Part shown: piece by piece, positions 15,017 to 27,516 of the stretch
How positions within the stretch are numbered: position 1 is the first letter of the stretch
Layout: each line of letters opens with the position of its first letter
Source of the DNA: a virus
Virus record (IMG/VR): IMGVR_UViG_3300010885_001361
Coordinates: 1 to 29,221 of that record
DNA: 29,221 nt
Direction: 5' to 3' (one strand)
The notes under the pieces: model-generated
Databases searched by the model: none
The model's input: only the letters and a program-made list of their open reading frames with translations
Told to the model about the DNA's origin: nothing
Made by a program: the position numbers and the translations under genes

Positions 15017-16066
15017 ATGAAAGTAGCTGTATATGCCATTGCCAAGAACGAGGAAAAGCACGTAGCACGCTGGCTGACATCTAGCCTGAAAGCTGACTAT
15101 CACCTGATAGCAGATACTGGTTCTACAGATGAGACAGTTGCTATAGCCAAGTCCCTTGGCATCAATGTCATAGAGATCAAGGTTGAACCTTGGCGCTTTG
15201 ACACAGCAAGGAACCTCAGCCTAGATGCCCTGCCAGATGATATTGACTACTGCGTAGCCCTAGATATGGATGAGGTGCTAACTCCAGGCTGGCGTGAGCA
15301 GCTTGAGATTGCCCATTCAGAAGGCATAGAACGCCCACAGTACCGCTTTATTACCTCGTGGGATGAAAAGGGTAAGCCTCTTACAGAGTTAGACGGATTT
15401 CGTATCCACAAGCGTCACGGTATGACCTGGGTACATCCTATCCACGAGGTGCTCAGGTGTACTGAAGGTGAAGACAAGCACAAGGTTTATCCCTTTGAGG
15501 TTCACCACCTGCCAGATCACGACAAGCCTAGAAATTACTTGAAGCAGTTAGAGACAGCAGTCAAAGAAGATCCTAATGCTCGTAACCTGTACTACCTAGC
15601 CAGAGAATACTTTGGTCACGGCAAACTAGATAAGGCACAGAAGGTCATCAAGCGATACCTCAAGGTATCTGAGTTTGATGCTGAGAAGTCTTATGCCTTG
15701 CGGATGCTAGCCAAATGTGAGGTACATAAACAGGAGCATTGGCTCCTTGCCTCAATGGAAACCTATCCTAGCCGTGAGTCAGTACTGGCTTTGGCTAACT
15801 ACTACTACGCCAACCAACGCTGGCAAGAGTGCAACTATGTTGCCAAGCGTGGCTTAGATTTCAAAGAAAGAACATCAGAGTTTCTATCAGAGAACTGGGC
15901 GTGGGGTCATATGGGATATGACCTTGCAGCTGTCTCTGCGTGGAAACTAGGTAAGTATCAAGAAGCCTACGAGTATGGTCAGCAAGCAGTTCTTAAATCA
16001 CCTCACGATGAAACTTTACGAAATAACCTCAAGTCCTATCAGGAGAAAATAGATGCCAACGTTTAA
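15017..16066 (+). CDS. GT2-type glycosyltransferase with C-terminal TPR-like repeats (349 aa)
   Basis: The N-terminal 120 residues have the GT-A fold signature of family 2 glycosyltransferases: AIAKNEEKHVARWL at 7-20, ADTGSTDET at 32-40, which binds the nucleotide sugar in this family, and ALDMDEVL at 81-88 with the DxD metal site at D83-D85. The later half has helical pairs resembling TPRs (NARNLYYLAREYFGHGKLDKA; KLGKYQEAYEYGQQAV). This architecture occurs in SunS/TPR-type protein glycosyltransferases and in many phage enzymes. It sits among tail genes and overlaps the adaptor gene by 14 bp, so a virion protein is a plausible acceptor. The ribosome site is weak. Confidence 0.85.
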   Translation: MKVAVYAIAKNEEKHVARWLTSSLKADYHLIADTGSTDETVAIAKSLGINVIEIKVEPWRFDTARNLSLDALPDDIDYCVALDMDEVLTPGWREQLEIAHSEGIERPQYRFITSWDEKGKPLTELDGFRIHKRHGMTWVHPIHEVLRCTEGEDKHKVYPFEVHHLPDHDKPRNYLKQLETAVKEDPNARNLYYLAREYFGHGKLDKAQKVIKRYLKVSEFDAEKSYALRMLAKCEVHKQEHWLLASMETYPSRESVLALANYYYANQRWQECNYVAKRGLDFKERTSEFLSENWAWGHMGYDLAAVSAWKLGKYQEAYEYGQQAVLKSPHDETLRNNLKSYQEKIDANV

Positions 16067-16958
16067 CGATATCATTAACGAAGTGCGTTCCAATTTACAG
16101 GGATACACCTTAAGGCAAGACCGCCTCACATACCTTGCCAATACAGGTGGCATCACCGCATCTGGTACCAGCATTGAGGTTGGTTCATCTAACAACCTTG
16201 CTAAAGGCATCATTGAAATTGATGATGAACTTATCTGGATTGACTCCTTTGACAAGGCAACAAGCACGATGAACGTTATCCCTGCAGGCTTTGGTCGTGG
16301 CTATCAGGGAACAGATGCAGCATCTCACGCACAGTATGCTCAGGTAATCCTATCTCCAACCTTTCCACGTCAGAGCATTAAGCGTGCAATCAATGACACT
16401 ATCAACTCATTCTTTCCTAAGCTCTGGGGCGTAAGCTCTACTACCTTTACCTTCAACGCAAGCCAGACTGCATACTCACTGCCAGCAGATGCACAATCTG
16501 TCATCTATGCCTCTTGGCAGACAACAGGTTCTAGCCTTGAGTGGTTGCCTATCAACCGCTGGCGTATGGACCCAATGGCTAACGTAACAGCATTTGCTAC
16601 CGGTAACACTATTAACATTTATGAGAACATCCAACCAGGTAGAACCGTTCAGGTCTTCTACACTAAGGAACCAACAGTCCTAACAGATAACGGTGATGAC
16701 TTTGCAACAGTAACAGGGTTGCCATCATCTGCCTATGATGTAGTTGTGCTTGGTGCCTCATACAAGTTGCTTTCATTCCTTGACCCAGGTCGTATCAACT
16801 TAACATCTGCTGAGGCTGACCTTAACGATTCAAAGATTCCATCCAATGCAGGTGTTGGTGCATCTCGTTACATCTACGCTCTATATCAACAGCGTCTTAA
16901 TGAAGAAGCGCTCAAGCTACAAGACAAATATCCAATCCGAATCCACTACATTAAGTAA
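16053..16958 (+). CDS. Probable head-tail adaptor/connector protein (301 aa)
   Basis: AGGAG precedes ATG by 6 bp. The N-terminus (TFNDIINEVRSNLQGYT) is followed by a beta-rich inserted domain (residues 25-105) containing FGRGYQGT and SHA, like the small beta modules often inserted in tail proteins. Next comes FPRQSIKRAINDTINSFFPKLW, a helix pair, then Y.LP.D (AYSLPADAQSV), as in many gp6/gp11-type adaptors. The C-terminus is a helical bundle (YALYQQRLNEEALKLQDKYP). I infer a ring protein between portal and tail. It has no enzymatic motif. Confidence 0.55.
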   Translation: MPTFNDIINEVRSNLQGYTLRQDRLTYLANTGGITASGTSIEVGSSNNLAKGIIEIDDELIWIDSFDKATSTMNVIPAGFGRGYQGTDAASHAQYAQVILSPTFPRQSIKRAINDTINSFFPKLWGVSSTTFTFNASQTAYSLPADAQSVIYASWQTTGSSLEWLPINRWRMDPMANVTAFATGNTINIYENIQPGRTVQVFYTKEPTVLTDNGDDFATVTGLPSSAYDVVVLGASYKLLSFLDPGRINLTSAEADLNDSKIPSNAGVGASRYIYALYQQRLNEEALKLQDKYPIRIHYIK

Positions 16959-16967
16959 GGCAGACCA

Positions 16968-17768
16968 ATGACACGTAGATACTCATCCATCAGCGTAGAG
17001 ACAACACTACAAACAACCGCTTCAATAGGTGCTACAACTCTTACACTACCTTCTTCAGGTGCTGTTACCGCGCTCCTTGGTGGAGCAACGCTTTCTCCAG
17101 GCAATGTGGATCAGTTCACTGTAGTGCTAGACCCAGATACAGCCAATGAAGAGATTGTATTTGTCACCGAAACATCTGGTGCAACATTAACAGTAGTGCG
17201 TGCTCGTGCTGGAACTGCTGCAGTTGCTCACACAGCAGGTGCAGTCATCCGTCACTCATTGACTTCAGATGACTTGACTTACTACACAACAGGTGTTGAC
17301 TCAGCAGCAACGGCTGCAGGAACTCTAACCTTTAGCAACAAGACTATTGCCCTTGGCTCTAACACAGTCTCAGGTACTACTGCTCAGTTTAATACTGCGT
17401 TAACAGATGGTGATTTTGCTACCCTTGCTGGAACTAACACCCTGACTAACAAGACTCTGACTACACCTGTGGCTAGTATTGCAATCAATCCTCAGACAAC
17501 TGCATACACCTTGGTTGCTACAGATAAGAGCAAGTTGGTAACAGTTACATCTGCCACTGCTGCAAATATCACAGTGCCACCAAGCATCTTTGCTGCAGGA
17601 GATATCATCTATGTAGCACGTCTAGGTGCAGGTACTTGCTCTCTAACTGCAGGTGCTGGAGTTACTATCAACACCACACCTGGTCTAAGCCTACGTGCTC
17701 AGAACTCAACAGCAGCAATTATCTGTACAGCATCTAACACATTCTTGGCTACTGGAGATCTTTCTTAA
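16968..17768 (+). CDS. Tail-fibre-like protein (266 aa)
   Basis: It is almost entirely beta and rich in Thr, Ala, Ser and Gly. Residues 10-100 form an N-terminal module with EEIVFVTETSG and RARAGTAAVAHTAGA, common in phage tail proteins. The centre has the fibre repeat phrase TLTNKTLTTPV. The last 90 residues (YTLVATDKSKLVTV, ITVPP, GAGVTI, LSLRAQNSTA, then GDLS at the end) match a C-terminal domain widespread in phage tail fibres and appendages. The stop overlaps the ATG of the mucin-like gene as TAATG, so the two products are translationally coupled and may assemble together. Confidence 0.75.
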   Translation: MTRRYSSISVETTLQTTASIGATTLTLPSSGAVTALLGGATLSPGNVDQFTVVLDPDTANEEIVFVTETSGATLTVVRARAGTAAVAHTAGAVIRHSLTSDDLTYYTTGVDSAATAAGTLTFSNKTIALGSNTVSGTTAQFNTALTDGDFATLAGTNTLTNKTLTTPVASIAINPQTTAYTLVATDKSKLVTVTSATAANITVPPSIFAAGDIIYVARLGAGTCSLTAGAGVTINTTPGLSLRAQNSTAAIICTASNTFLATGDLS

Positions 17769-18076
17769 TGCTCAACCTACTGGCATTTATTGGTAACTTT
17801 GTATCACCGGTGACAACCACAACAACCACTACGGCTGCGCCTACGACTACCACTACTGCTGCACCAACTACAACAACAACTCCAGCACCGACTACACCAG
17901 CACCTACTACTACGACAACAACACCAGCTCCAACAACGACTACCACAACAGCACCAACTACAACTTGGTATTGCACTACCTTCAACGGTGGTCGTTATAC
18001 ATCATCTACAGATGATTCTGAAGTGTGTGTAGTATACTGTTCTACTAGCGGGTATCCAGGCGCCGTGCCTTGTTAG
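17768..18076 (+). CDS. Mucin-like Thr/Pro/Ala-rich protein with Cys-rich C-terminal domain (102 aa)
   Basis: Residues 1-15 are hydrophobic (LNLLAFIGNFV). Residues 16-66 contain only Thr (34), Pro (9) and Ala (8), as runs of 2 to 7 Thr separated by AAP, PAP or AP. Residues 67-102 form a small Cys-rich domain with Cys at 69, 87, 91 and 102. All four ACN Thr codons are mixed, so the tract is not a simple DNA repeat. The composition is that of an O-glycosylated stalk. It is coupled to the fibre gene upstream and lies two genes before a GT60-type glycosyltransferase, so it is the obvious candidate acceptor. No enzyme motif. Virion display is inferred from position. Confidence 0.75.
   Translation: MLNLLAFIGNFVSPVTTTTTTTAAPTTTTTAAPTTTTTPAPTTPAPTTTTTTPAPTTTTTTAPTTTWYCTTFNGGRYTSSTDDSEVCVVYCSTSGYPGAVPC
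17813..17965 (+). repeat. Thr-Pro-Ala low-complexity tract
   Basis: 51 consecutive codons made only of Thr, Pro and Ala (34/9/8). Spacing between the proline blocks is irregular, and codon choice varies (ACA, ACC, ACT, ACG), arguing for selection on the protein. The - strand is open across the tract, giving a Val/Gly-rich reading that is an artefact. Confidence 0.85.
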
Positions 18077-18084
18077 GAGTTTAG

Positions 18085-18279
18085 ATGTCAGATGTTAAGC
18101 CTTGGGATATGTTCAACGGAACACCAAGGGCCACAAAGGAAGAGACTGAGCGCAGATTTAATATCTGCCAAGGTTGTCCAGAACTTGTGGAGTTAACATC
18201 CACCTGTAAGCAGTGCGGTTGCTTTATGTATATGAAGACTAAGCTACAGCCTGCTACCTGTCCGTTAGGAAAATGGTAA
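18085..18279 (+). CDS. Small Cys-rich protein (64 aa), DUF6171-like
   Basis: The core is ERRFNICQGCPEL, TSTCKQCGCFM and ATCPLGKW, with Cys at 28, 31, 41, 44, 46 and 58, a likely zinc knuckle or ribbon. I recognise the R..IC..CPEL..L...CK.CGCFM..KTKL..A.CP.GKW pattern as that of DUF6171-type proteins, which are common in tailed phages, often beside glycosyltransferase or tail genes. Function is unknown. TAGGAG lies just upstream of the ATG. It ends in a TAATG overlap with the GT60-type gene, so the pair is probably co-translated, and it might assist that enzyme (inference). Confidence 0.8.
   Translation: MSDVKPWDMFNGTPRATKEETERRFNICQGCPELVELTSTCKQCGCFMYMKTKLQPATCPLGKW
18267..18270 (+). promoter_or_regulatory. 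Ribosome site that decides the GT60-type gene start
   Basis: AGGA at 18267-18270 is 2 bases from ATG 18273 but 8 bases from ATG 18279. The second ATG shares an A with the stop of the gene before, the arrangement used throughout this operon, so 18279 is chosen. Confidence 0.6.
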
Positions 18280-19190
18280 TGGCATCTATATTTGTACAGA
18301 TAGCATCTTATCAAGACTTTGAATTACCCAAGACAGTCATAGATGCAGTAGCAAAGAGCAGTGGTAATCACGTTATCTGCTTCGGTGTTCATAACTGCGT
18401 AGTTGAAAACCATCAGATCTTTATACCGATGGTGCCTAACTTTAGAATGCAAGAGAGCCAAGCGCCAGAGAACATTGGCGTAGGTCTAGGCAGAAGTATA
18501 GCAAATTCACTATACAACGGTCAGGACTACTACCTACAGGTAGATGGACATACTAGGTTCTATCAGAACTGGGATGAAGAACTCATCCGTAACATATTAG
18601 AGATGCAAGCACAAGGTATTAAGAAGCCACTGATAAGTGCATATCCTTCTTCGTATTCCTACAATAACCAGTTACAAGAACACTGTGACTGGGATAGATC
18701 AGTTACCAGTATCTCTTTTGCAGAAAAGCCTGAGCAGTTTGAGCAGACTCTAATACCTAGCCAGCTAGCAGTACCCAGTGAAGGCGGCATCAAGCAGACT
18801 TCTATATCTGCTGGCTTTATCTTTACTCTCGGTGAGTTTGCCTATCTTGGCTTTAACGAAAAGATTATGTTCTGGGGAGAAGAGATCCTCATAGCAGCTC
18901 GTGCTTATACCAATGGCTTTGATTTGATGATTCCAAATAAGCAATATATCTATCATCTCTACTACGACCACAGTTCAGTGTTCCAGAAGAACCTACGCAG
19001 ACACGTATGGAAAGACTACCCAGACCAGTATCACGCCAAGGATCTTGAGTCCAAGGCTGAGGTCTATGACATCTTATCTACTGCTCGTATAGGTAAAGAT
19101 GCGCTAGGTAATCAACGCACGCTAGATGAGTACGGTCAGTATGCAGGTTTAGATTTTAAGAATAAGGCAGTAATAATCAAAGGAGAATAA
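18279..19190 (+). CDS. GT60-family glycosyltransferase, polypeptide alpha-GlcNAc-transferase type (303 aa)
   Basis: The motifs follow the GlcNAc-transferase family (Pfam Glycosyltransferase GlcNAc, CAZy GT60): IFVQIASYQD at 4-13, YYLQVDGHTRFYQNWD at 84-99 (the family's Q.D.H.RF..NWD metal/sugar site), SAYPSSY at 120-126, a helical spacer, then FWGEEI at 198-203 and YHLYYD at 225-230. Characterised members transfer alpha-GlcNAc from UDP-GlcNAc to Thr in protozoan mucins or to hydroxyproline in Skp1. No membrane anchor is present, so the enzyme should act in the cytoplasm of the infected cell. The neighbouring mucin-like Thr/Pro protein is the likely acceptor. An alternative role is modification of other tail proteins. 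Sugar donor specificity cannot be read from sequence alone. Confidence 0.85.
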   Translation: MASIFVQIASYQDFELPKTVIDAVAKSSGNHVICFGVHNCVVENHQIFIPMVPNFRMQESQAPENIGVGLGRSIANSLYNGQDYYLQVDGHTRFYQNWDEELIRNILEMQAQGIKKPLISAYPSSYSYNNQLQEHCDWDRSVTSISFAEKPEQFEQTLIPSQLAVPSEGGIKQTSISAGFIFTLGEFAYLGFNEKIMFWGEEILIAARAYTNGFDLMIPNKQYIYHLYYDHSSVFQKNLRRHVWKDYPDQYHAKDLESKAEVYDILSTARIGKDALGNQRTLDEYGQYAGLDFKNKAVIIKGE

Positions 19191-22522: not shown

Positions 22523-22675
22523 ATGCTCGGCACGGCTCCTTCCTGTGGTCAGTCGCCTCTCGGCCTTACGGCCTCGGCCCCGTAAGGGGCCACTGTAAAT
22601 TCGCTATCGCTCATATTGTACACATCAGGTAGCGTGTCTCAGGTACGACACGCCGTAGGTGTGTTACTCTCAGGT
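22523..22675. promoter_or_regulatory. Divergent intergenic region with competing hairpins, inverted repeat and triple direct repeat
   Basis: This 153-bp gap between divergent genes must hold both promoters, though no clear -35/-10 pair stands out; ATTGTA at 22615-22620 reads TACAAT on the - strand. It contains (a) stem CCTTACGG 22564-22571 / CCGTAAGG 22580-22587, (b) the alternative stem GGCCCC 22576-22581, loop GTAA, GGGGCC 22586-22591, which cannot form together with (a), (c) the inverted repeat GCGTGTC 22632-22638 / GACACGC 22647-22653, and (d) TCAGGTA three times, at 22625, 22639 and 22670. This suggests a regulated control region; no binding protein is identified. Confidence 0.5.
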
Positions 22676-23233
22676 ATGACAACCATCGCAGCTGTTGAAG
22701 GTATTGATTACGCGGTCTTCGTAGCTGACTCTCAGATAACTGAGGACAATCTCGTGACCTTAGCAACGAGTACGCCTAAGATAGTTGAGGTGGGTAAGTT
22801 CATCATCGGCATATCAGGTGATACCAGACCAGGTGATATCCTTGCCTATAACTGGAAACCGCCACTCTATCGTGGCGAGGAACCAGCACAATTTATGGGA
22901 CGCAAAGTAATACCAAGCATTATGAGTACCTTTACAGATAATAACTACGAGTGGAACAAGGTGGACAAAGATGGTGGCTTCGATTATCTCATTGCTTTTA
23001 ACGGCAATATCTTCCGTATTGCTTGTGATCTCTCTTTTTTCCAAGCAGATCACGGAACGTACGGCATTGGTTCTGGTGGGCAGCTCGCTCTTGGCTACCT
23101 GTATTCAATTCGCAAACCTGATATGGAGTTAGCCTACGCCAAGCGACACGCCAAGAAAGCCGTAGAGATTGCGTCAATGCTTGACGCCAATACTGGTAAG
23201 CCTATACAGTTGGTAGTCCAAGAACGGTTCTAG
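22676..23233 (+). CDS. Proteasome beta/HslV-like Ntn-hydrolase (185 aa)
   Basis: The start is set at ATG 22676, which leaves Thr-Thr after the initiator Met; a longer in-frame reading from 22616 would bury the catalytic Thr. Counting the first Thr as 1, Asp 17 lies in the VADSQ motif and Lys 34 in PKIVEV, matching the Thr1/Asp17/Lys33 triad of 20S beta subunits and HslV within one residue. GISGD and GIGSGGQLALGYL correspond to the conserved GSGG..AL element of HslV. Beta-strand and helix order also agree. It may be a self-compartmenting peptidase or a decoy for the host proteasome. No ATPase partner gene is present. It is the first gene of the second rightward run. Confidence 0.8.
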   Translation: MTTIAAVEGIDYAVFVADSQITEDNLVTLATSTPKIVEVGKFIIGISGDTRPGDILAYNWKPPLYRGEEPAQFMGRKVIPSIMSTFTDNNYEWNKVDKDGGFDYLIAFNGNIFRIACDLSFFQADHGTYGIGSGGQLALGYLYSIRKPDMELAYAKRHAKKAVEIASMLDANTGKPIQLVVQERF

Positions 23234-24503: not shown

Positions 24504-24881
24504 ATGGCTACAGAAGGTACAAAGTTTCAGATCAACTACAAGTTGTCAGATGGAACACTTATCAATCTTTACGCATCATCAGTTTCTGAACTAGAGACAG
24601 GTCTTGCAGATATTTCTATGAACGCAATGAACATTCGTGCAACAGGTTTGGAACTATCAGGTGGTCAAGCAGCACCAGCACCATCAGTTGCTTCAGTTGC
24701 TCAGGCATTTAATGCAACACCAGTTGCAGCAGCACCAGCACCAACAGGTGGAGGCAACTCCTGTCGTCACGGTGTGATGGCATTTCGTGAAGGAACATCA
24801 AGCAAGGGACCTTGGAAGGGCTATATGTGTGCTGCACCAAAGGGTGCAACAGACAAGTGCGATACCATCTGGGTTCGATAA
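24504..24881 (+). CDS. Unknown DNA-metabolism neighbour (125 aa) with C-terminal Cys/His module
   Basis: ATG follows the nuclease stop directly. The N-terminal 50 residues look beta/alpha (FQINYKLSDGTLINLYASS). The middle is an Ala/Pro linker (residues 55-84). The C-terminus has Cys 87, His 89, Cys 109 and Cys 119 in SCRHGVMAF, KGPWKGYMCAAPKG and DKCDTIWV, a plausible small zinc site. The KGPWKGY.C..PKG..D.C pattern recurs in phage proteins I cannot name. Context beside a Cas4-like nuclease suggests a single-strand binding or recombination accessory. Confidence 0.6.
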   Translation: MATEGTKFQINYKLSDGTLINLYASSVSELETGLADISMNAMNIRATGLELSGGQAAPAPSVASVAQAFNATPVAAAPAPTGGGNSCRHGVMAFREGTSSKGPWKGYMCAAPKGATDKCDTIWVR

Positions 24882-24884
24882 CAA

Positions 24885-25160
24885 ATGCGGGAGCCGAGGT
24901 TTTACGAAGCTCCTAGTTGTGCAACAGTAGGTGGAGACTTTTGGTTTCCAGATAATGAATCAGGTGTACCTGGTGCATCCACAGTAGATTCTCTTTTTGC
25001 TAAGAGCATCTGTAATCGCTGTCCCTATAGAAGGGAATGCGCTGAGTGGGGTATCAAGAATGAGGCTCACGGTATCTGGGGCGGTCTAACACCAAGAGAC
25101 CGTCAACGAATAAGACGTGATCGCGGTATCAAAATACATCAGGAGGATGACGTTGCTTAA
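24885..25160 (+). CDS. whiB: WhiB-family transcription factor (91 aa)
   Basis: All four iron-sulfur cysteines of the family are present: Cys 12, then Cys 43, Cys 46 and Cys 52 (SICNRCPYRRECAEW). The conserved turn GIWGG at 63-67 is followed by a basic tail (RDRQRIRRDRG) that binds DNA. WhiB proteins regulate actinobacterial transcription by contacting the principal sigma factor, and phage copies can repress or compete with host paralogues. The ATG at 24885 lacks a clear ribosome site and lies 4 bp after the preceding stop, so it is probably translated by coupling. It is the best single marker for an actinobacterial host. Confidence 0.92.
   Translation: MREPRFYEAPSCATVGGDFWFPDNESGVPGASTVDSLFAKSICNRCPYRRECAEWGIKNEAHGIWGGLTPRDRQRIRRDRGIKIHQEDDVA
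25141..25146 (+). promoter_or_regulatory. Ribosome site pointing to a TTG start for the ATPase
   Basis: AGGAGG at 25141-25146 touches ATG 25147 with no spacer but is 6 bases from the in-frame TTG at 25153, the normal distance. The gene is therefore started at TTG, inside the end of the WhiB gene. Confidence 0.55.
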
Positions 25161-26004
25161 TCTGTCCCGTGCGTGGGGTGGTGTGCTTACCAAGGCAACA
25201 CCACTACCTGACGTATGGACTGGCTTAGCTGCCAAGCAGATTAAGTTCAGGCGTGGGCAAGTATGTATGGTTGCAGCAGCACCTAATGCTGGTAAGTCAA
25301 TGTTCGCATTGATCTATGCAATCAAAGCAAAGGTGCCTACATTATTCTTCTCAGCCGATACTGATACAGCCACCGTGATGATGAGAGCAGCTTCTCACAC
25401 ATCAGGTCACTCACAGATTACTGTTGAGAACAACTTGGCTGGGAACAGTCATCACTACGACCATCACTTCCAGAAGATTGACCACATCAAATGGGTCTTT
25501 GATTCATCACCTTCGATAGATGATCTTGAACTTGAGATAAGGGCATACGTAGAACTCTACGGAATTGCACCGGAACTTATCATCATAGATAACCTAATGA
25601 ACGTGGCAGCAGAGACAGACAATGAATGGTCAGGACTACGTGCAATTATGATGGAGTTGCACGATATGGCACGAAAGACTGAGGCTTGCGTACTGGTACT
25701 GCATCACGTCTCTGAGCAATCAGAGTACGGATCTCCCAGCAAACCACCAGCCAGACGTGCTATCCACGGTAAGGTCAGTCAGTTGCCTGCACTGATCTTA
25801 ACTCTAGGCTATGACCCCAACCAGGCAACCTTATCTGTGGCTGCTGTGAAGAACCGCTTTGGTCCACACACAGCTGATGCTTCCGATTTTGCACAACTGC
25901 TAGTAAACTATGCAGCGTGCCAGATATCAGATCAAGATGAGTTTGGTTGGATGTTAAGGAGAGATGCAATGGCAAACTATCAAGGAGGTTACAATGTCCA
26001 ATAG
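25153..26004 (+). CDS. RecA/DnaB-type ATPase, probable replicative helicase (283 aa)
   Basis: Start at TTG 25153 (ATG 25147 is the alternative). Walker A is APNAGKS at 43-49; Walker B is LIIIDN at 142-147, after a predicted strand; LVLHH at 181-185 is the usual next strand with a polar sensor, as in RadA and DnaB C-terminal domains. FFSADTD at 65-71 fits the conserved strand with the catalytic-type acidic residue. There is no N-terminal DnaB domain, and at 283 residues it is shorter than full DnaB. Together with the split primase at 28048-28972 it would supply the phage helicase-primase. RecA-like recombinase is the alternative. Confidence 0.75.
   Translation: MLNLSRAWGGVLTKATPLPDVWTGLAAKQIKFRRGQVCMVAAAPNAGKSMFALIYAIKAKVPTLFFSADTDTATVMMRAASHTSGHSQITVENNLAGNSHHYDHHFQKIDHIKWVFDSSPSIDDLELEIRAYVELYGIAPELIIIDNLMNVAAETDNEWSGLRAIMMELHDMARKTEACVLVLHHVSEQSEYGSPSKPPARRAIHGKVSQLPALILTLGYDPNQATLSVAAVKNRFGPHTADASDFAQLLVNYAACQISDQDEFGWMLRRDAMANYQGGYNVQ
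25982..25988 (+). promoter_or_regulatory. Ribosome site setting the start of the second GT-A gene
   Basis: AAGGAGG lies 5 bases before ATG 25994. It fixes this start and rules out the longer reading from 25964, whose first ten codons lie inside the ATPase gene. Confidence 0.8.
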
Positions 26005-26662
26005 CAACTTAGTTATTCTGCCTTCACGCAGCAGACCAGATAACGTAGAGCGTTGCATCAATGCGCTGAAAGAGAACTCAGTTATATCTGATTTCTGTGT
26101 AGCAATTGATGATGACCAATCAGATCTTTACCCACGACTAGATGATGTTATCTATGAGGTCAATCCAAGACTTCGTATGAATGGCACACTCAACCTTGTG
26201 GCTAACAAATATGCGAGTAAGTACAAGACTATCTACTTCCTTGGTGATGACCACCTGGTCAAGACTAAGAGCTGGGATAGACACTTAGCAGAAGCAATCA
26301 ACATCAAGGGCTACGGTCTTGCTTATGGCAATGACTTACTGCAAGGTAAGAACCTTGCTACTGCTGTGATGATGAGTACTAACATCATTGAGACACTTGG
26401 ATTTATGGCACCGCCTAAGTTGATTCACCTGTTTATGGATAACTTCTGGATGACACTGGGCTTGAAGATTAACTCACTGTATTACTTTGATGATGTCATC
26501 ATTGAACATCTACATCCATACGCAGGCAAGGCTGAGATGGATGCAGGTTATGTTGATGCAAACTCAGAAGAGGTAGGCAGTGCAGACCAGAAAGAGTTTG
26601 TGCGCTACCTTAGTGAAGAGTTTGAGGATGACCTCAAGAAAGTGATGAAACTAATCGGATGA
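25994..26662 (+). CDS. GT-A-fold glycosyltransferase (222 aa)
   Basis: NLVILPSRSRPDNVERCINAL at the N-terminus (the SRxRP element in residues 11-15) and the acidic pairs AIDDDQSD at 38-44 and FLGDDHLVK at 82-90 give the nucleotide-sugar and metal sites of a GT-A enzyme. In the middle, GYGLAYGNDLLQGKN and later MDNFWMTLG match phage enzymes of this small GT2-related class. The acidic C-terminal helix is unusual. It overlaps the ATPase end by 11 bp and the epimerase by 4 bp (ATGA). It probably works with that epimerase on an activated sugar. Acceptor unknown: host surface glycan, virion protein or phage DNA are all open. Confidence 0.75.
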   Translation: MSNSNLVILPSRSRPDNVERCINALKENSVISDFCVAIDDDQSDLYPRLDDVIYEVNPRLRMNGTLNLVANKYASKYKTIYFLGDDHLVKTKSWDRHLAEAINIKGYGLAYGNDLLQGKNLATAVMMSTNIIETLGFMAPPKLIHLFMDNFWMTLGLKINSLYYFDDVIIEHLHPYAGKAEMDAGYVDANSEEVGSADQKEFVRYLSEEFEDDLKKVMKLIG

Positions 26663-27516
26663 AGATTCTCATAACCGGTAATCACGGTTTTGTTGGTAAG
26701 TATTTTCATAAGCGTTTAGGTCCTGACCACGACATAACAGGTATTGATATCAGAAAAGGTATTGATTGCAGAGACTTCTTCAAGAAGGATGACTCTCAGT
26801 ATGATCTTGTTATCCATCTAGCTGCTATCGTAGGTGGACGTGAGTCCATTGAAGGTAGACCAATGGCAGTTGCTGATAACTTCAGCATTGACTCTGAGTT
26901 CTTTCAGTGGTGCTTGAAGACTAAGCCTAAGAAGATTGTTTACTTCTCATCTAGTGCTGCATATCCTACGCATTACCAGCAGGGTAGCGAGGCTAAGAGA
27001 TTACAAGAGTGGATGATTACACCTTCATCACCTAACGGTCCTGATATGACTTACGGTATGGCTAAGGTAATCGGTGAGTATCTTGCATCATTTGTAGAGA
27101 ACGTTCATATCTTCAGACCATTCTCAGGTTACTCATACCTGCAAGATACAAGTTATCCGTTCCCTATGTACATCAGACGTGCTATCAAGAAGTCAGATCC
27201 GTTTGAAGTCTGGGGTCCAGGTACACAGACACGAGATTTTATTCATATCGAAGATATTGTTAGCGCAGTGTTAACTGCTGTTGAACAAGGCATCACTGAA
27301 CCAATCAACCTTGGTACAGGTAGATCTACATCATTCCTTGAACTGGCACAGATGTCTATGGATGCAGTCGGTTACAAGGGTGAGATACTTACCAGGCCAG
27401 ATAAACCAGTTGGCTGTATGCACCGTGTATCTGATAACACAAAGCTGTTAAGTTTCTACACTCCCAAGATTACTTTGGAAGAGGGAATAGCTGAGGCGGT
27501 AAAAGCACTTGGCTAA
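26659..27516 (+). CDS. NAD-dependent epimerase/dehydratase (extended SDR, 285 aa)
   Basis: The Rossmann dinucleotide site is TGNHGFVG at 6-13. VIHLAAIVGG at 51-60, YFSSSAAY at 95-102 and the catalytic YGMAK (Tyr 132, Lys 136) follow in the order of extended short-chain dehydrogenases, with RDFIHIEDI and INLGTG further on, as in UDP-glucose 4-epimerases, GDP-fucose synthases and dTDP-sugar enzymes. Length is slightly short for the family. It starts in an ATGA overlap with the glycosyltransferase gene, implying a shared pathway that remodels a nucleotide sugar. Substrate cannot be assigned from sequence alone. Confidence 0.85.
   Translation: MKILITGNHGFVGKYFHKRLGPDHDITGIDIRKGIDCRDFFKKDDSQYDLVIHLAAIVGGRESIEGRPMAVADNFSIDSEFFQWCLKTKPKKIVYFSSSAAYPTHYQQGSEAKRLQEWMITPSSPNGPDMTYGMAKVIGEYLASFVENVHIFRPFSGYSYLQDTSYPFPMYIRRAIKKSDPFEVWGPGTQTRDFIHIEDIVSAVLTAVEQGITEPINLGTGRSTSFLELAQMSMDAVGYKGEILTRPDKPVGCMHRVSDNTKLLSFYTPKITLEEGIAEAVKALG

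Follow-up and report, generated by a model that had tools for sequence, protein, structure and literature searches.

Characterised GT60 enzymes transfer alpha-GlcNAc onto Thr of Trypanosoma cruzi mucins, with KPPTTTTTTTTKPP as the Thr8 test peptide (PMC3769586). These mucins contain about 50% Thr, 10% Ala and 8-9% Pro (PMC3769586), and another GT60 acceptor is the hydroxyproline of Skp1, which also receives alpha-GlcNAc (PMC6939170). GT27 and GT60 are GT-A families in which the DxD motif has become DxH, and in GT27 a C-terminal His completes the metal site (PMC7185993). In phages, mycobacteriophage virion proteins carry glycans, and there is precedent for a phage-encoded glycosyltransferase that acts on virion proteins (Freeman et al. 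2023, cited through PMC12619734). Literature searches, with subscription papers lying mostly outside them, returned no mention of DUF6171 and no phage system of the exact make-up described below, in agreement with the sequence-only reading that had singled out the locus.

The locus lies in a linear IMG/VR virus record of 29,221 bases, analysed as a whole and referred to here as the window. On the plus strand, an adaptor, a 266-aa fibre-like protein, a 102-aa Thr/Pro/Ala protein, a DUF6171 protein, a PF11397 transferase and a PHROG 11667 protein are encoded in that order. The window also encodes a capsid protein (PF13252), tail-fibre-like proteins, a helicase, a primase and a WhiB-family protein. 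The nearest isolated relatives of the major capsid and adaptor proteins are mostly Streptomyces phages (about 39-45% identity), and an unannotated Caudovirales record shows ~50% identity to the capsid/adaptor proteins. Because of these relatives, and because whiB has been counted as an actinophage mark in freshwater work (PMC10202952), this freshwater phage likely has an actinobacterial host. A phage-encoded protein of the proteasome/HslV peptidase family (PF00227, PHROG 1040) is found at 22616-23233, and the gene at 24504-24881, which adjoins the WhiB-family gene at 24885-25160, matches the mycobacteriophage L5/D29 gene 49 protein family (PF25690). The features of the structural region and the cassette are as follows.

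15017-16066, plus strand: GT2 and TPR protein (PHROG 13126), by profile match; possibly another virion or surface glycosyltransferase, with a hypothetical tie to the stalk.
16053-16958, plus strand: SU10-type adaptor (PF24175), by profile match; marks the structural region and is the anchor for the sister-phage comparison.
16968-17768, plus strand: tail-fibre-like protein (PHROG 38058), 266 aa, directly 5′ of the stalk gene; candidate attachment partner of the stalk.
17768-18076, plus strand: putative stalk protein, 102 aa, with a 15-aa N-terminus, a 51-aa Thr/Pro/Ala tract and a 36-aa Cys-rich C-terminal knob.
17813-17965, plus strand: Thr/Pro/Ala-only tract, residues 16-66, the proposed O-glycosylation region.
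17966-18073, plus strand: C-terminal knob, WYC...CVVYC...PC, with four Cys, kept in relatives by sequence comparison.
18085-18279, plus strand: DUF6171-family Cys-rich small protein, 64 aa, by PF19668 match, an alignment with six invariant Cys and a model.
18279-19190, plus strand: GT60-family (PF11397) glycosyltransferase, 303 aa (305 from the alternative ATG at 18273), by profile, alignment and model.

Residues 16-66 of the stalk protein had been read as Thr, Pro and Ala only (34, 9 and 8 residues), and these counts are exact. All four Thr codons are used in the tract (14 ACA, 12 ACT, 4 ACC and 4 ACG), which is therefore not a simple DNA repeat; the next-longest run of these three residues among the proteins of the window is 7 residues, and the chance expectation for a 51-residue run has a log10 of about -29. 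In nine relatives the tract is 48-52 aa long, with 46-79% Thr and 8-32% Pro. Judged from these alignments, it has the features of a mucin domain, namely a long Thr/Ser/Pro tract in which length and composition are kept while the order of residues drifts. The Pfam Mucin profile (PF01456) gave 10.8 bits against a cut-off of 34.7, a low-complexity resemblance only. The cassette genes are tightly packed on one strand, since the fibre stop and the stalk start overlap in TAATG (17766-17770), the gap from the stalk gene to the DUF6171 gene is 8 nt and the DUF6171 and GT60 genes overlap or abut; the earlier description of overlapping or nearly adjacent starts was thus confirmed. A fusion of fibre and stalk by frameshifting was considered, the stalk lying in the -1 frame, and was rejected as reading the overlap by eye revealed no slippery heptamer. 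Coupling through TAATG, with GGAG ahead of it, appears simpler.

The transferase had been placed in GT60 on the motifs QVDGHTRFYQNWD and FWGEEI, both of which are present, and the PF11397 (GlcNAc/GT60) profile establishes this family at 128.3 bits (cut-off 21, E 6e-37). Three elements of the active site could be located in the alignment of phage GT60s.

18543-18551, plus strand: DxH metal-binding motif, D89-G-H91, with D and H in 63/63 phage GT60s.
18879-18884, plus strand: Glu-Glu pair E201, E202 of FWGEEI, in 63/63 sequences; taken as the position of the xED motif (motif role: PMC7185993).
18954-18956, plus strand: H226, candidate C-His metal ligand, in 62/63 sequences (role: PMC7185993).

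R72, D89, H91, W98, D99, E201 and E202 are invariant over the 63 phage homologues, at identities down to 18%. The GT60 pattern of DxH for DxD with a C-terminal His is present, H226 being taken as the C-His by position and not from superposed ligands. The AlphaFold model of the enzyme (pLDDT 95.2, pTM 0.93) has a GT-A fold near the GT27 clade. Foldseek ranked polypeptide GalNAc-transferases first among solved structures, and with VIA-align the best 29 solved entries were all polypeptide GalNAc-transferases (Z 22.0 to 18.3), followed by chondroitin polymerase (Z 18.2) and other GT-A enzymes at 18.2 and below. The likeness is one of fold only: a GT60 profile search matched no GT27 chain among PDB sequences, and PDB sequence searches with the protein and the profile gave nothing useful. 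Since its model is nearest to polypeptide GalNAc-transferases, the phage GT60 fits a polypeptide O-glycosyltransferase and is a candidate for that activity.

The pairing of enzyme and tract was examined in other viral genomes. The sample comprised 80 GT60 loci in viral contigs and further loci reached via DUF6171, from which 63 representatives were aligned and treed. Pairing was counted in 54 representatives, under about 85% identity and with enough upstream DNA, and was scored when a Thr/Pro-rich protein was encoded on the same strand, no more than 3.5 kb upstream. Such a protein was found 5′ of GT60 in 44/54 loci, compared with 3/63 sister phages without GT60 (in the slot downstream of the adaptor) and 4/158 stretches of random viral DNA. 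Under a strict criterion the counts were 42/54 for GT60 loci vs 0/63 sister slots and 0/158 random stretches (Fisher 3e-21 and 7e-34). The co-occurrence of Thr-rich proteins with the transferase expected by the sequence-only reading was thus upheld, in a test set beforehand. Where DUF6171 was nearby (46 GT60 loci) the tract was upstream in 40 and downstream in 1. Among 70 sister-phage loci anchored on the adaptor, tract and GT60 were both present in 7, both absent in 63 and never found one without the other. The rise in Thr relative to random DNA was by far the largest among the 20 amino acids, with Cys and Pro also up; Ser in the proteins upstream of GT60 was no higher than in the sister-phage slot.

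The association runs in one direction, since GT60 is not more frequent with Thr-run tracts than on random contigs. GT60 was within reach of 3/118 tract loci, and on long viral contigs it accompanied Thr-run tracts in 3/42 cases vs 1/34 random contigs, which rules out the Thr tract as a predictor of GT60. Thr-run and AAP tracts are common in viral contigs (L018-L135); they usually sit close to the C-terminal end of the carrier, and most have no GT60. A general rule pairing tracts with glycosyltransferases was also rejected, as only a handful of GT families was found among 120 downstream neighbours of GT60-less Thr tracts. On the tree the tract and DUF6171 labels change 7 times each, and an independent-pairs test was too small for significance; because the GT60 loci are related and the label changes few, the co-occurrence partly reflects joint inheritance of the cassette. 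No tract was found near GT60 in a distant clade (L190, L195-L207), beside primase-adjacent GT60s (L144-L148) or in the jumbo phages RAS14 and XacN1. Among isolated phages, GT60 was found in only three records, two of which were examined and had no tract nearby, and the cassette was not found in any cultured phage. Bacterial GT60s had a Thr/Pro protein within 5 kb in 5/40 cases, one of them with DUF6171 (L554, probably phage DNA), and SAR86 and most other bacterial GT60s had none within that distance.

The abundance of Thr tracts without GT60 in viral contigs, together with the adjacent fibre gene, would suit a reading in which GT60 glycosylates another virion protein, such as the 266-aa fibre or the Cys-rich knob, with the Thr tract as a co-inherited flexible linker only. 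We consider this unlikely, as members of one phage lineage have either both tract and GT60 or neither, it is Thr content that rises and not Ser or Gly, and the carriers differ widely outside the tract. Among the upstream carriers, at least 9 groups with no detectable match outside the tract can be distinguished, a figure that is soft because single-linkage BLAST joined multi-domain proteins into one large chain, and carriers of the window type show no detectable kinship to most others. The shortest carriers have about 100 residues and the longest more than 1,200. In 37/44 carriers the tract falls within the final 150 residues, and four or more Cys follow it within 80 residues in 36/44 GT60 carriers vs 16/96 Thr-tract proteins without GT60 (p 1e-13). 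As the carriers vary in size and mostly show no detectable kinship outside the tract, what they share is a stalk ending in a Cys-rich tip, borne on different structural proteins. In L033, L188, L456 and L476 the tract of a structural protein is followed by a domain judged by eye to be Hint-like (self-processing).

Glycosylation of the tract itself, that is, a GT60 cassette for phage-encoded O-glycosylation of a virion stalk, is the reading we regard as probable. The earlier proposal that the phage decorates its own mucin-like protein stands as far as the enzyme-substrate pairing is concerned, which is well supported by the HMM placement in GT60, the mucin-type-transferase-like fold and the statistical co-occurrence, but is weakened by the frequency of Thr tracts in viral contigs without GT60. 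The stalk gene would be expressed together with the tail-fibre protein, giving a stiff Thr/Pro/Ala stalk that ends in a small Cys-rich knob. Within the infected cell and ahead of virion assembly, GT60 would place a HexNAc, presumably in the retained (alpha) configuration, on many threonines of the tract; the donor would most likely be UDP-GlcNAc, and the product alpha-GlcNAc or a related sugar. DUF6171 may act as a small Cys-rich helper, perhaps a metal-binding adaptor for substrate or enzyme. In the virion, dense sugars could extend and rigidify the stalk, shield it from proteases and present the knob for receptor contact, so a glycosylated stalk may serve adsorption or protection. Two further genes of the window may belong to the same pathway.

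25964-26662, plus strand: GT-A-like glycosyltransferase (PHROG 14945), with a 55% homologue between DUF6171 and GT60 in L149; candidate for a further step.
26659-27516, plus strand: NAD-dependent nucleotide-sugar epimerase (PF01370, PHROG 540), with a 70% homologue next to GT60, between DUF6171 and GT60, in L149; candidate donor-sugar enzyme.

Because these homologues sit between DUF6171 and GT60 in L149, synteny suggests that the two genes may serve to extend the first sugar or to produce its donor in the window phage.

Other substrates were also weighed. The enzyme could modify a host surface polymer, for example in a superinfection block, with its closeness to tail genes due to chance, and cell-wall modification is among the published guesses for freshwater actinophage glycosyltransferases (PMC10202952). 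This is very unlikely in our judgement, as it leaves the 44/54 pairing with Thr/Pro proteins unexplained, no GtrA/GtrB-like membrane partner was found among the window proteins scanned and the nearest folds are polypeptide transferases. Glycosylation of bases in the phage's DNA, an activity put forward for other phage glycosyltransferases, finds some support in the suggestion of DNA protection for Nanopelagicales phages (PMC10202952) and in the jumbo phages RAS14 (L485) and XacN1 (L486), the GT60 of the latter being near genes annotated as DNA polymerase, RNase H and carbamoyl transferase; these enzymes may act on DNA or another substrate. For the window enzyme such a role is highly improbable, since the jumbo-phage GT60s are distant from it (25-31% identity) and without a tract, its gene sits inside the structural module, and no pyrimidine hydroxymethylase was found among the window proteins scanned, in a record that may be incomplete.

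The sequence-only reading had called the middle gene of the cassette DUF6171-like, which PF19668 bears out (29.3 bits vs a cut-off of 27). Its product is probably metal-binding; the model (pLDDT 87) had no PDB match (best E 9). DUF6171 is present in 51/80 GT60 loci, ending in most of the 51 exactly at the GT60 start or at most 34 nt from it, and in 120 random loci the sole DUF6171 gene adjoins the sole GT60 of that set. DUF6171 is not specific to GT60: the family is common (at least 598 stretches), and away from GT60 its neighbours are genes for 2OG-Fe(II) oxygenases (PF13640), radical SAM/SPASM proteins and sulfotransferase, and one weakly matching O-FucT. A 2OG gene was found in 42/79 DUF6171 loci vs 6/120 random loci, and in isolated cyanophages DUF6171 lies beside fibre genes or prolyl 4-hydroxylase-like genes. 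We infer that DUF6171 is a helper of appendage-modification loci. That DUF6171 is the true partner of the enzymes, in loci of mixed tail-region modification genes where the stalk is incidental, accords with this range of neighbours and is scarcely probable, as a Thr/Pro-rich protein lies upstream in 11/41 DUF6171 loci without GT60 (7 under the strict criterion) and tract type tends to follow the enzyme.

Most tracts near a 2OG oxygenase are of the (PT)n or (VTP)n type, and Thr runs predominate where GT60 stands alone; L033, L153 and L158 are exceptions. The association of tract type with the oxygenase has p 0.0007 per locus, 0.008 within GT60 loci and 0.09 (not significant) per carrier group. 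One DUF6171 locus (L422) has a weak match to protein O-fucosyltransferase (PF10250), below the cut-off, and another (L429) has a gene resembling it and a Pro/Thr-rich carrier. We tentatively propose, with slightly less than even confidence, that aquatic tailed phages carry a class of interchangeable appendage-modification cassettes. Each would combine a Thr/Pro-tract fibre or stalk, often with a Cys-rich tip, with a DUF6171 helper and swappable enzymes (GT60, prolyl-hydroxylase-like 2OG oxygenases, O-fucosyltransferase-like, sulfotransferase and radical SAM), the enzyme being matched to the tract, Thr runs with GT60 alone and Pro-Thr repeats with oxygenases.

If the stalk is glycosylated as proposed, phages would have their own mucin-type glycosylation, with enzyme and acceptor genes side by side, and a polypeptide O-glycosylation system that is compact and has a known acceptor would be working in the bacterial cytosol. 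The function of many freshwater actinophage 'glycosyltransferase' genes, for which the usual guesses are DNA or the host wall, would become testable, and a handle on DUF6171 would be gained. If Pro-Thr repeats are indeed tied to 2OG oxygenases, this would account for the prolyl-hydroxylase-like genes near tail fibres in marine and freshwater phages, and the wider class, if it exists, would correspond, on the viral side, to the mucins and hydroxyproline-rich glycoproteins of eukaryotes.

Compared with known systems, the glycans of mycobacteriophages are at the C-termini of capsid and tail-tube subunits (Freeman et al. 2023, cited through PMC12619734), whereas a dedicated Thr/Pro stalk is proposed here. 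GT27 polypeptide GalNAc-transferases share with the phage GT60 the nearest solved fold (Z 22), the DxH motif and a peptide acceptor, predicted in the case of the phage; the phage enzyme differs in its CAZy family, has about 12% identity to them and has no lectin domain. In the Skp1 pathway the prolyl hydroxylase PhyA acts before the GT60 enzyme Gnt1, and this order is echoed in L423, L430, L451, L456 and L478, where DUF6171, one or two 2OG-Fe(II) oxygenase-like genes of the prolyl-hydroxylase-like type and GT60 stand in a row; Skp1, however, has one hydroxyproline whereas the phage tracts are long repeats, and the window is without a 2OG oxygenase near GT60. TcOGNT-2, with its Trypanosoma cruzi mucins, and Dictyostelium Gnt2 are UDP-GlcNAc:polypeptide alpha-GlcNAc-transferases of GT60 that share with the phage cassette the PF11397 family, the DxH signature and a Thr-run acceptor with Pro and Ala. 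Those are eukaryotic Golgi enzymes acting on membrane mucins, whereas the phage system has the candidate acceptor in the enzyme's own gene cluster.
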